The notes under the pieces were generated by a model. It was not told the origin of the DNA. It saw only the letters and a program-made list of their open reading frames with translations, and searched no databases. A DNA stretch of 49,341 nucleotides, taken from Chloroflexota bacterium (GTDB lineage: Bacteria > Chloroflexota > Anaerolineae > Anaerolineales > UBA11858). The position numbers and the translations under genes are program-made. Where the stretch lies: assembly GCA_030609055.1 (NCBI GenBank), contig JAUWCZ010000003.1, positions 1-49,341 of the forward strand, read 5' to 3'. Shown in pieces: positions 23,071-29,072 of this stretch (its first letter is position 1; each line of letters starts with the position of its first letter).

Positions 23071-23353
23071 CTCGAATTTTGGATGTACATCACCATTCGC
23101 GGGAGAATTTCACGATACATAAAATATCTAAATAACATCTACCATCAAGCCAAATATTACGCCTCTAATATTCAGTATATTGGAACGAATATTGAATCCA
23201 GTATATGAAGTCATAACAGATAAAATAATAATCTTCGATAAAAAACTTTACACGTTCTTTAAATTCCCTTTATTGATACTTCATTTCAAATTGATACACT
23301 CCTTCATGTATTCTGAGGCATCGATGCATGAGAAATGATAAGGGAGAGTGAAA

Positions 23354-24160
23354 ATGAATAGATCAGTGAGAATTGCCTTAGCAACCATCGTAATTTTAAT
23401 AATTGGTTGTGGATTAGTGTATTCGGGGATAATAATTGGAAGGTCCGCTTGGATTCCTCATTACGGAAGTATAAATTCGCAAGGAATGAGGATGCCTTTC
23501 ATGGGTAGCTCCGAATATTGTGCACACTCAAACAACTTCGGTAACTATATGATGGGTGGGCACCGGATGATGGGGGAATACTACTTTAATTCAGGAGATG
23601 ATATTCAACCTTTGCCGATTGATGAGGTTGACTTGATTATCCATGAGTATCTTGAAAATAACTCAGCAGAAGATTTAATCCTGGGTGAAATCATGGTATT
23701 TGATAATCATGCTTATGCCCAAATCATTGAAAAAAGCACTGGAATTGGCGCAATGGAAATTCTGATTGATCCCCAAACCAGATCGGTGTACCCGGAACAA
23801 GGACCAAATATGATGTGGAATTTAAAATACAGTCCAATGGATTCGTCAGACCGGTTTCAGGGACCTGGAATGATGTCGGGATCTAGTAGAGATGGATTTG
23901 AAGAATCGAATATAACCTCGGATGAAGCGGAGAATATGCCCGTGAGCAGTGACCAGGCAGTGGGCGCTGCCCAAAAATACCTGGATCAATATCACCCGGA
24001 AACCACAGCGGAAGAACACGCCGACAGGTTTTATGGATACTATACAATCCATGTTTTGAGGGCTGATGATGTGATTGGCATGTTGAGCGTAAATGGATAT
24101 AACAGCCAGGTCTTTTTCCACAATTGGCATGGGGAATTTATCCAAATGAGTGATCACTAA
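23354..24160 (+). CDS. Met/His-rich membrane-anchored PepSY protein
   Basis: A 268-aa protein anchored by one N-terminal helix (IALATIVILIIGCGLVYSGI). The extracellular part starts with a Met/His/Tyr-rich stretch (about 40-80: RMPFMGSS, MMGGHRMMGEYY) that could bind Cu(I). The C-terminal third (about 195-268) resembles a PepSY unit (SSDQAVGAAQKYLDQYHPET ... YGYYTIHVL). ATG 23354 is preferred over the GTG at 23348 because GGGAG is eight bases away. It is the first gene of the plus-strand copper unit, 113 bp before the response regulator, and may sense or buffer copper. No close family is named. Confidence 0.75.
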   Translation: MNRSVRIALATIVILIIGCGLVYSGIIIGRSAWIPHYGSINSQGMRMPFMGSSEYCAHSNNFGNYMMGGHRMMGEYYFNSGDDIQPLPIDEVDLIIHEYLENNSAEDLILGEIMVFDNHAYAQIIEKSTGIGAMEILIDPQTRSVYPEQGPNMMWNLKYSPMDSSDRFQGPGMMSGSSRDGFEESNITSDEAENMPVSSDQAVGAAQKYLDQYHPETTAEEHADRFYGYYTIHVLRADDVIGMLSVNGYNSQVFFHNWHGEFIQMSDH

Positions 24161-24273
24161 AATAATATACTGCACTCCCACAAATGGGGCTGATACTCTT
24201 TCAGCCCTACTTGTGGTTAAATAGAAGAACAGCAACCTGATTCTTAGCATGTTAAGTTTCATTGGGAGGATTG

Positions 24274-24960
24274 ATGGCAAATGAGAAGGTCTTGGTAATT
24301 GATGATGAGGTCAAGATCTTAAACCTCGTCACATCCTACCTTGAGAAAGAAGGTTATGAGATCTTTACCGCGCAGGATGGCATATCCGGATTACAGATTG
24401 CCCGGACTAAAAAGCCGGACATCATTGTCTTAGATATCATGCTCCCGGAAATGGATGGTATCGAATTGTTATCTCAGCTGAGAAGGGAATCGAATGTTTA
24501 CGTAATTATGTTAACAGCAAGAACCGAAGAGACAGATAAAATTGTCGGTTTATCAGTTGGCGCGGATGACTATGTGACCAAGCCTTTCAGTCCTAGGGAA
24601 TTAACTGCCCGTATCAAGGCGGCTCTACGTCGGTTAAGTCTCACTGGAAAACAAATCGATCGGAATACCCTGAGATTTAAACATATCACAATTGATCTTG
24701 GAAGCAGGAAAATTTGGGTTAATAAACAAGCGATTGATCTTACCGCCATGGAATTTGACCTTCTGACCGCTTTGGCCGAACACCCCGGTCTGGTCTTCAG
24801 CAGGGAACAACTTCTTGAGAAGGTTTGGGGACACGATTATTTCGGTGAATTACGAGTAGTAGATGTTCATATTGGTCATATCCGGCAGAAGTTGGGGGAC
24901 GACAAGTATATTGCCACAGTAAGAGGTGTAGGATATCGTTTTGAGGACGACTGGGAGTAA
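24274..24960 (+). CDS. OmpR-family response regulator
   Basis: A 228-aa two-component regulator. The receiver domain has the acidic pocket D10-D11-E12, phosphorylation site D54 (IIVLDIMLPEMDG), T81 and K103 (VTKPFSPREL). The C-terminal winged helix (about 130-227) is of the OmpR/PhoB type (TAMEFDLLTALAEHPGLVFS, then VDVHIGHIRQKL). The ATG at 24274 follows GGGAGG; a TTG at 24262 is ignored. It precedes its histidine kinase by four bases. Given the downstream CopB-type ATPase and DUF411 gene it probably responds to copper, although this is inferred from position. Confidence 0.95.
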   Translation: MANEKVLVIDDEVKILNLVTSYLEKEGYEIFTAQDGISGLQIARTKKPDIIVLDIMLPEMDGIELLSQLRRESNVYVIMLTARTEETDKIVGLSVGADDYVTKPFSPRELTARIKAALRRLSLTGKQIDRNTLRFKHITIDLGSRKIWVNKQAIDLTAMEFDLLTALAEHPGLVFSREQLLEKVWGHDYFGELRVVDVHIGHIRQKLGDDKYIATVRGVGYRFEDDWE

Positions 24961-24964
24961 TAAG

Positions 24965-26110
24965 ATGATAAAAAGAATTCGCCGTCATCTTGGGATCAAA
25001 TTCTTTATTTCATATTTTGTTGTCATCCTGATTGGAATCCTAGTTTTAATCATGGCAACAAAATATACGGTACCAGGTGCTTTTGACCGGCACATGGCAG
25101 CAATGATCGAGGTGATTGGTCCTTCAGCCTCAGAACTAGAATTTGATCTTTACAATAACTTCCAAAATGCGGTTAATGAATCCTTGATTATTTCTGCTGG
25201 GGCTGCTTTCATTTCTGCTGTGATCGTCAGTTTATTTGTCAGCAGACAGGTAGTTGCTCCAATTCGTCGAATCATGGTCGCCAGTCAGCGTATTGCTAAT
25301 GGGCACTATAGTGAACGTGTCCAAATTCCGGGCAGCCTAGATAAAGGGGAAATGGATGAACTAGCACAATTATCGCTAAGTTTTAATCAAATGACTCTGG
25401 AACTAGAACAATCTGAAACCCTCCGGAAACAACTGATCGGGGATATTGCCCATGAGCTGCGAACACCGCTGGCGACGATTAAAGGATCCATGGAAGGATT
25501 AATGGATGGTGTCCTCCCAGCCGGGGAAGATACCTATCACCAGGTATATCAAGAAGCCGAACGATTGCAACGATTGGTGGATGATCTGCAGGACTTAAAT
25601 CGTGTTGAAGCCGGAGCAATCCAGTTGACCCTTGAAAGAAATAATGTTAGGGAACTGATTGAATTAACCCAAAAGCGGTTGTTAAGGCAGTTTGATGAAA
25701 AAGGTGTATCCCTTAAACTAAATATTCCAGATGATTTACCTGAGGTATCTGTTGACACCCATCGGATAGGGCAGGTATTTATTAATCTTGTAGGCAATAG
25801 TTTACAATATACTCCCCCTGGTGGGGTGGTGACGATTACTGCGGAAGAACAAAACAATCAAATACTGGTCATAATTTCAGATACTGGGATTGGGCTCTCC
25901 GCAGAGAATCTATCGCATATATTTACTCGTTTTTACCGGGTTGATAAATCTCGCTCTCGGGCTGGAGGCGGAAGCGGCATCGGTTTAACTATCGCCAAAC
26001 ATCTTGTAGAATCACACGGTGGAAAGATCTGGGCAGAAAGCCCTGGATTAGGAAAAGGAAGCACATTTAAAGTTTTATTGCCATTGTCATTACCCACACT
26101 CCACCTCTAA
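24965..26110 (+). CDS. Membrane sensor histidine kinase
   Basis: A 381-aa kinase partner of the upstream regulator. Two membrane helices (about 13-32 and 73-95) enclose a short external sensor loop of about 40 residues. A HAMP domain (about 95-150) leads into HisKA with the phospho-acceptor His163 (GDIAHELRTPLATIKGS) and the HATPase domain: N box (FINLVGNSLQYTPP), G1 (DTGIGLS), F box (FTRFYRVD) and G2 (GGGSGIGLTIAKH). The start ATG is 4 bp after the regulator's stop, with GGGAG inside that gene's end. The small sensor loop fits metal-ion sensing as in CusS-like kinases, but is not proof. Confidence 0.95.
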   Translation: MIKRIRRHLGIKFFISYFVVILIGILVLIMATKYTVPGAFDRHMAAMIEVIGPSASELEFDLYNNFQNAVNESLIISAGAAFISAVIVSLFVSRQVVAPIRRIMVASQRIANGHYSERVQIPGSLDKGEMDELAQLSLSFNQMTLELEQSETLRKQLIGDIAHELRTPLATIKGSMEGLMDGVLPAGEDTYHQVYQEAERLQRLVDDLQDLNRVEAGAIQLTLERNNVRELIELTQKRLLRQFDEKGVSLKLNIPDDLPEVSVDTHRIGQVFINLVGNSLQYTPPGGVVTITAEEQNNQILVIISDTGIGLSAENLSHIFTRFYRVDKSRSRAGGGSGIGLTIAKHLVESHGGKIWAESPGLGKGSTFKVLLPLSLPTLHL

Positions 26111-26493: not shown

Positions 26494-28569
26494 ATGGATC
26501 ACCATGCAGAGCACAATCATGAGAATCAAATAGCAGATCACAACAACGATGCCCACGATCAACATCATGAAGGTCATCAAAGGGAATCTCATCAAGATCA
26601 TGGAGTTGACCACAGTGGACATGAAGATCTGTTCCGGCGACGTTTTTGGGTCTCGTTAGCGCTAAGTGTTCCTGTAATATTGTTCAGTGTTACTGTTCAG
26701 CAATGGCTTGGGTTTTCTACGCCTACCTTCCCAGGAAGTAATTGGATCGTGCCAATAATTTCCATAATCATTTTTGGGTATGGAGGTGTTCCGTTTATCC
26801 AGATGGCAGTTCCTGAGATGAAGCGGCGATCTCCGGGAATGATGTCCCTGATATCCTTGGCAATAATTGTAGCGTTTTCATACAGCGTTGCCACAACTTT
26901 TCTTAAATTCGGAGAAAGTTTTTATTGGGAATTGGTCACGTTGATTGATGTAATGCTCTTGGGACACTGGATTGAAATGCGCAGTGTACGGCAGGCCTCG
27001 GGCTCATTAAATGAATTAGCGAAACTACTACCGGATACAGCCGAACGAATTAACAAGGATGGTTCAATAGAAAGCGTGCCATCCCATCTTCTACACCCGG
27101 GAGATCTATTTTTAATCCGGCCGGGAGACAGCATCCCTGCAGACGGAAGAGTTGTTGAAGGGGAATCTCATGTGAATGAAGCGATGATTACCGGGGAATC
27201 AAAACTGGTATCTAAAACAACAGATGATCCGGTGATTGCTGGAACAATCAACGAAGAAGGAAGTCTGCGGGTTGAGGTATCTGCTACAGGAGATGATACC
27301 GCTTTAGCCGGAATCATGAGGCTGGTTAATGAAGCCCAGCAGAGCAAATCGAATACCCAGGTCCTGGCGGATAAAGCGGCAGGTTGGTTGTTCTACATAG
27401 CGCTTGTAGTGGCAGTTCTTACTGGTATTGGTTGGGTTGTCGCTGTAGGATTTGATATCGAAGTAGTCAAACGTGTCACGACTGTATTAGTCATTGCCTG
27501 TCCTCATGCCCTGGGTTTGGCAGTCCCACTTGTGGTTGCAATCAGCACTTCATTGGGAGCTGAAAATGGAATTCTGGTCAGAGATCGGATTGCATTAGAG
27601 GAAGCCCATTTACTGGATACGATTATCTTTGATAAGACAGGCACCTTAACCAAAGGTGAGTTTGGAGTTGTTGATATTGCAGTCGTTGATCATTGGAACG
27701 TAGAACAAGCCCTGGGATTTGCTTCCGCACTTGAAGGGGACTCGGAACATCTCATCGCCCGGGCAATTCAGGAAAAAAGCCAAGAGTTATCGAGTTCTAC
27801 TCCTAAAGCAGTTGGATTTTCAGCCATTAAAGGGCGAGGAGTGAAAGCAGAGGTAAATGGTCAGGACACATACATCGGGGGTCCGAAATTATTAGAGATG
27901 CTAAAAATTGAACCCTCCGGCAAGTTGGCTGAGTTTTCCAGAATAGCTGGTAATAAAGGGCAGTCAGTTGTCTTTCTGGTTCATGATAACCACCTTGTGG
28001 CTGCCTTTTCTCTGGCAGATCTGATACGAAGAGAGAGTGAAGAGGCTGTGAAGCAACTTCAAGGAATGGGCGTCGAAGTTGTTATGCTTACAGGTGATAG
28101 TCAGGAAGTCGCTCAAAATGTAGCCCAAGAGTTAGGAATATCACGATTCTTTGCGGAAGTATTGCCGGAAGATAAGGATAAGAAGGTAATTGAGCTTCAG
28201 GAAGAAGGAAAGCGTGTTGCGATGGTGGGCGATGGTGTAAACGATGCGCCAGCATTAACACGGTCTGATGTCGGTATAGCGATTGGTAGCGGCACTGATG
28301 TCGCGGTTGAGTCGGCTGGGATAATCCTGGTTAAAAGCAATCCGCTGGATATTGTTCAGATTGTAAAATTGAGTCGTTTAACTTATCGAAAGATGATCCA
28401 GAACCTGATCTGGGCAACCGGATATAACATCATAGCAATCCCATTAGCCGCTGGTGTTTTAGCACCCTTTGGAATTTTACTCTCACCTGCGGTTGGAGCA
28501 CTGTTTATGTCCCTAAGTACAGTGATAGTCGCATTGAACGCCCAATTATTACGAAGAGGGTTATTGTAG
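26494..28569 (+). CDS. copB: CopB-type P1B copper-transporting ATPase
   Basis: A 691-aa heavy-metal pump. The first 45 residues are His-rich ([12 protein letters not shown]..., about 15 His), as in CopB. The metal-binding membrane motif is Cys336-Pro-His338, the CPH form of P1B-3 ATPases rather than the CPC of CopA. Actuator TGES lies at 233-236, the phosphorylation site is DKTGT (Asp380), and the hinge is [10 protein letters not shown]. Eight helices are predicted. Cu(II) or Cu(I)/Ag(I) export out of the cytosol is expected. It is preceded by SHOCT and the two-component system, and followed 35 bp later by the DUF411 gene, so it belongs to one copper-resistance unit. Confidence 0.95.
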
Positions 28570-28604
28570 ATTGTCTAAGAGATTACCTAAAAGGAGAATT
28601 CTTT

Positions 28605-29072
28605 ATGAAACGGTTTCTTGTTGTAAGTCTTCTTATTGCTGTGTTGTTGTCGGCATGTGGAGCTGCCGCGATGCAGGGTGAGGACGTTCAGGAAGATCTA
28701 TTAGTTACGATTTATAAATCGCCTACTTGAGGGTGTTGTGGCACTTGGATTGAGTATCTGAAGGGAAATGGGATCAAAGTAAAGACCGAAAACGTAGAAA
28801 CGCTCGTTGAGGTCAAAACCCGCTACCAGGTCCCCGCAGAACTCCAGACCTGCCATACAGCCATCGTGGATGGCTATGTTGTAGAAGGCCATGTACCTAT
28901 TGCCGAAATTGAACGTTTGCTGCAAGAACGACCGGATGTGATCGGTATTGCAGTTGCAGGCATGCCAGCAGGAGCCCCGGGAATGGACATTGAAGGATTT
29001 GATTCCGAATCATTTGATGTGGTTACATTCGATAAAGAAGGTACCATTCAAATATATTCTAGTTACCAATAA
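28605..29072 (+). CDS. DUF411/CopG-type lipoprotein, predicted selenoprotein (Sec42)
   Basis: A lipoprotein start (MKRFLVVSLLIAVLLSACG, lipobox LLSAC, strong AAAAGGAG) leads into a DUF411 domain containing an in-frame TGA at 28728-28730. Read through, the 155-aa product has TIYKSPT-U42-G-C-C, where relatives have C-G-C-C, then WIEYLKGNGI, LQTCHTAIVDGYVVEGHVP and a Gly/Pro/Met tail. DUF411 includes CopG, a copper-resistance protein whose cysteines bind a copper cluster, so Sec would replace one cluster ligand. A stem-loop lies 14-33 nt after TGA (28744-28763) with loop TGAGT at +21 to +25. It is exported and sits after the copper ATPase. A nonsense mutation is the alternative. Confidence 0.85.
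28728..28763 (+). promoter_or_regulatory. Sec UGA and putative bSECIS in the DUF411 gene
   Basis: UGA at 28728-28730; CTTGGAT pairs with ATCTGAAG (one bulged G, one G-U pair), apical loop TGAGT 21-25 nt after the UGA. Spacing is close to that in the redoxin gene. Found by eye, not by folding software. Confidence 0.55.

Follow-up and report, generated by a model that had tools for sequence, protein, structure and literature searches.

The window analyzed here, a 49,341-nucleotide stretch of Chloroflexota DNA (contig JAUWCZ010000003.1), carries on its forward strand, at positions 28605 to 29072, a gene predicted to encode a selenocysteine (Sec)-containing lipoprotein of the CopG/DUF411 family. 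The product has 155 residues, with an in-frame UGA read through, and the frame closes with a TAA ending at 29072. The start codon (ATG at 28605) is preceded by AAAAGGAGAATTCTTT, in which a Shine-Dalgarno sequence is clear (ribosome-binding site region with AGGAG, 28588 to 28597, forward strand). The translation begins with a lipoprotein signal peptide whose lipobox, L-S-A-C, spans residues 15 to 18 (28647 to 28658, forward strand), C18 being the lipobox cysteine. Signal and lipobox are also present in loci L017, L018, L020, and L022 and in other relatives. Apart from a single TGA at 28728 to 28730 (forward strand), the frame is intact. This codon corresponds to residue 42, in the context SPT-U-GCC, and occupies the first Cys position of the C-G-C-C (UxxC) copper/redox motif. 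The rest of the motif, G43-C44-C45, lies at 28731 to 28739 (forward strand), and C44 and C45 are invariant in the alignment.

The DUF411 core of the product reads CHTAIVDGYVVEGHVP. With the TGA read as a residue, a profile search gave a PF04214 (DUF411) score of 89.1 bits against a cut-off of 27. The match, at 28842 to 28985 (forward strand), includes C83-H84-T85 and the Met-bearing GMPxGxPGM segment. The sequence of the crystallized CopG (6wis) aligned to residues 31 to 154 with an E value of 8e-29, placing U42 opposite the first C of "CGCC." M120 and M127 are invariant in the alignment, and the CxCC motif is kept here as U-G-C-C, Sec standing for the first Cys. An AlphaFold2 model built from 18 relatives was confident (pLDDT 88), and its best structural matches were the CopG crystal structures 6wje and 6wis (rmsd 1.5 Å; TM 0.92 by target length). 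No second DUF411 gene was found in the source assembly.

The gene lies 35 nt downstream of a gene encoding a copper-translocating P1B-type ATPase (26494 to 28569, forward strand; TIGR01511, 603 bits against a cut-off of 397) with a His-rich N-terminus and an ACPHA motif. Farther upstream is a two-component system composed of an OmpR-family response regulator (24262 to 24960, forward strand) and a sensor histidine kinase (24941 to 26110, forward strand) whose genes overlap. Just upstream of that system, positions 23348 to 24160 encode a secreted or anchored Met/His-rich protein (MMGGHRMMG). It had no Pfam match and is possibly another metal-binding part of the locus. The metal-linked neighbor is a different one at locus L017, where the gene next after the Sec-form copG looks by eye like one for an FTR1-type permease.

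The source genome encodes a complete Sec pathway: a tRNA-Sec whose anticodon is UCA (70.8 bits), SelA (438 bits), SelB (322 bits), and SelD (351 bits). SelD is itself a Sec form, with a TGA at its catalytic site (NCAGUASK). UGA also serves as an ordinary stop codon, terminating eight of 35 open reading frames in the window as well as selB. SelA was detected in 17 of 18 tested genomes carrying the Sec form of copG versus, in a wider set, eight of 20 carrying the Cys form. The one Sec-form genome without a SelA match (G002) is 88% complete, and tRNA-Sec is present there. A tRNA-Sec scoring above 60 bits was found in 16 of the 18 Sec-form genomes; no strong match was found in the other two.

Excluding duplicate records, we identified 23 distinct full-length genes, the window gene included, with UGA at exactly the codon for the first Cys of the motif. 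Twenty-one belong to Chloroflexota, one to a Desulfuromonadales MAG, and one to a Rokuibacteriota MAG; identity of the UGA-form relatives to the window protein is mostly 38 to 60%. The roughly 80 remaining homologues have TGC or TGT at this position, and neither TAA nor TAG occurred there in any homologue examined. Several samplings contributed to this collection. A search of 201 genomes around the window's lineage recovered both UGA-form and Cys-form genes, including 10 full-length genes (among them the window's) with an in-frame TGA at the motif codon. A phylum-wide draw added one more, in a high-quality three-contig genome, and a larger draw from the same order gave further TGA genes. Among 79 readable homologous loci in a scan of GTDB species genomes, the codon was TGC in 39, TGT in 31, and TGA in nine, with no other codon; the TGA loci include the Desulfuromonadales (L047) and Rokuibacteriota (L117) examples. 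One genus (g43) is mixed, with Sec forms at L022, L124, L126, L130, and L131 and Cys forms (TGC) at L125, L127, and L129, so that its species provide natural Sec/Cys pairs.

Some individual loci were unusual. Genome G606 has two diverged Sec-form copG genes (L128 and L132), each with the motif TGA. In genome G135, a Sec-form gene (L021/L043) has an additional in-frame TAA 3' of the motif and may have been damaged or misassembled; despite this later TAA, L021 is counted among the ten TGA genes of the 201-genome search. Genome G020 has copG fragments at contig ends (L025 and L033), one of which has the motif TGA followed by garbled sequence, probably reflecting misassembly or a broken copy.

In close Sec-Sec pairs, dN/dS after the TGA was 0.07 to 0.13, similar to that of Cys-Cys pairs, and the downstream part is therefore translated as protein. 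On a tree for which the motif site had been masked, the distribution of Sec and Cys was most simply explained by six changes, and well supported branches alone forced at least three. A single Sec clade was rejected (p 0.043), with the reservation of a short alignment and a tree that is unresolved in places. Nested inside the Sec clade are Cys genes such as L038, whose host genome (G398) had no SelA that we could find and no clear tRNA-Sec. As far as this partly unresolved tree allows, the two forms appear to have been exchanged several times, even inside one genus.

Taken together, these results make it very likely (probability roughly 0.95) that the product of the window gene is CopG (DUF411), a copper-resistance protein, in a selenocysteine form. 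The gene, its fold, the exact and recurrent exchange of UGA and Cys codons, purifying selection after the UGA, and the complete Sec pathway in the genome are shown by computation. Sec incorporation, copper binding, and any advantage of selenium are inferred. All of the evidence is genomic, mostly from MAGs, and comes without protein or selenium data. A first-pass annotation, made from sequence alone, had proposed this identity, and the proposal is supported by the Sec machinery, the recurrent TGA, and the Sec/Cys exchange on the tree. Its description of a DUF411 frame intact except for a TGA at the first Cys of C-G-C-C held (translation, PF04214 match, and 6wis alignment), as did that of a strong ribosome-binding site (the AGGAG region) and an intact lipobox (LSAC). 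Two checks that it had suggested both favor selenocysteine: tRNA-Sec(UCA), SelA, SelB, and SelD were all found in the same genome, and homologues from sister lineages have TGA at the identical position, not random stops.

The weakest part of the selenoprotein case is the SECIS element, for which evidence across the family is modest. The same annotation had placed a potential stem-loop from 14 nt after the UGA, with its apical loop at +21 to +25, and this claim was not supported. A weak candidate for a bSECIS upper stem-loop lies at 28743 to 28755 (forward strand; ACUU-GGAUU-GAGU), where ACUU and GAGU could form a 4-bp stem around the loop GGAUU, but it is no better than chance: it is not part of the minimum-energy fold, and the fold energy is average (z 0.13). 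We examined stem-loops by folding, by synonymous-codon shuffles against Cys forms, by pair enrichment, and by alifold on subclades. The best bSECIS-type hairpin of the window gene was average relative to its synonymous-codon shuffles (z 0.01). Across 18 Sec genes such hairpins were modestly enriched (mean z -0.55 versus -0.02 for Cys genes; p 0.019, synonymous shuffles), and the minimum free energy of the first 54 nt did not differ between Sec and Cys genes (p 0.70). In one subgroup (L028, L029, L030, and L117), a hairpin at +18 to +34 is clear and conserved, and its apical loops are rich in G.

Of the alternative explanations, the one that survives best is a variant of the main reading, in which the protein is a selenoprotein that uses Sec only for thiol/selenol redox chemistry (a glutaredoxin-like UxxC) and does not ligate copper. 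A Sec-xx-Cys at a helix start suits a glutaredoxin (Pfam PF00462, E 9e-4, with matches to thioredoxin-like folds), and bacterial selenoproteins are mostly thought to be redox proteins (PMC13188914). However, the same CxCC residues hold the copper cluster of CopG (PMC7558416), the conserved Met residues are retained, and a copper ATPase gene precedes this one, which together tilt us slightly away from this variant. Far less probable is that a suppressor tRNA or a reassigned code makes UGA specify Cys or another amino acid, without selenium. Cys does occupy this site in homologues, and Cys readthrough would also keep the frame. Against this, UGA terminates the eight window open reading frames and selB noted above, both a UCA-anticodon tRNA-Sec and a canonical Sec UGA in SelD are present in the genome, and the Sec form of copG accompanies Sec machinery across genomes. 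Genome-wide recoding of UGA was rejected on the same use of UGA as a stop codon.

That the locus is a Cys-form copG with a nonsense mutation or a sequencing error, or a pseudogene of that form, is all but ruled out. The window comes from a MAG, and one change from TGC or TGT to TGA would suffice, but separate assemblies supply another 22 distinct genes with TGA at the same codon, selection after the codon is purifying, and neither TAA nor TAG was found at the motif site. Equally remote is a true stop at the UGA, which does work as a stop elsewhere in the genome, yielding a 41-residue lipopeptide and a separately started downstream frame: the sole in-frame start within 150 nt after the UGA (GTG at 28866) has no visible Shine-Dalgarno sequence and lies inside the conserved core, past the motif cysteines, and the motif residues directly after the UGA are conserved as protein.

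For the preferred reading, a selenocysteine form of CopG, the following mechanism may be proposed. SelB and tRNA-Sec(UCA) would decode the UGA at 28728 as Sec42, and the product would be exported and anchored as a lipoprotein. It would fold as a CopG-type thioredoxin-like domain in whose CxCC copper motif Sec replaces the first Cys. CopG is reported to hold a tetranuclear copper cluster through this motif and two Met residues, and its proposed activities are copper transfer and the oxidation of Cu(I) to Cu(II) (PMC7558416; PMC8456105). Working most likely as CopG does, the window protein would bind the copper that the neighboring P-type ATPase exports and cycle between Cu(I) and Cu(II) or between thiol redox states, with the selenolate serving both as cluster ligand and as nucleophile of the UxxC redox pair. 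The likeliest function, inferred in the absence of biochemical data, is to bind copper outside the cytoplasm and control its redox state, with Sec acting as a ligand, a nucleophile, or both. The bolder proposal, that Sec42 directly ligates a multinuclear copper cluster in vivo, could in our judgment go either way. Selenium-copper ligation has not been shown, and the first-pass suggestion of Sec as a cluster ligand is plausible only by inference from CxCC ligation in CopG. To our knowledge, no natural protein holds copper through selenocysteine, and this one would be the first if Sec42 does so in vivo.

The Sec form of CopG is, very probably, a selenoprotein that has not been catalogued. DUF411/CopG is absent from the 119 prokaryotic selenoprotein families and subfamilies compiled in Table 1 of a May 2026 review (PMC13188914), no matching model in NCBIfam release 20 exceeded its cut-off for the window protein, and the literature searched contained nothing linking DUF411 or COG3019 to selenium. 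The earlier inference of novelty is consistent with these results, with the caveat that coverage was incomplete and an unlisted report or database annotation is not excluded. The finding would add a family to the prokaryotic selenoproteome beyond those in the 2026 catalogue and would tie selenium use to copper resistance. Under standard annotation, the gene would end at the UGA and the copper motif would be missed. Because both forms exist in one genus, the natural Sec/Cys pairs can be used to ask what selenium contributes at a copper site, and a selenium-copper bond is directly testable since the structure of a Cys relative has already been solved.

Several known systems resemble the window protein in part. 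The glutaredoxin-like (seleno)proteins Uxx-star (NF041212) and YruB (TIGR02196) resemble it in fold, and the first Cys/Sec of their motif falls at the corresponding strand-loop-helix position. The window protein falls far under both curated cut-offs (13.3 versus 66 bits for Uxx-star and 21 versus 88.55 bits for YruB), and membership in the Uxx-star family was rejected on this score. These short models do not cover the C-terminal half of DUF411, where the CHT and Met segments are found. Sec occurs at predicted metal-handling sites in the SO_0444 Cu/Zn transporter, a CopZ-like 2Fe-2S protein, a Sec P-type ATPase, and MerT (PMC13188914), but these heavy-metal proteins belong to other families, none of them DUF411. 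Formate dehydrogenase and [NiFeSe] hydrogenase use Sec to ligate a metal directly, but that metal is Mo/W or Ni and not copper. The closest counterpart is CopG of Pseudomonas aeruginosa (PDB 6wis and 6wje; DUF411/PF04214), with which the window protein shares a thioredoxin-like fold (rmsd 1.5 Å, ~40% identity), the motif position, the CHT and GMPxGSPGM segments, and a copper-resistance gene context, and from which it differs in having Sec for the first Cys of CxCC, a lipoprotein signal, and a Chloroflexota host.
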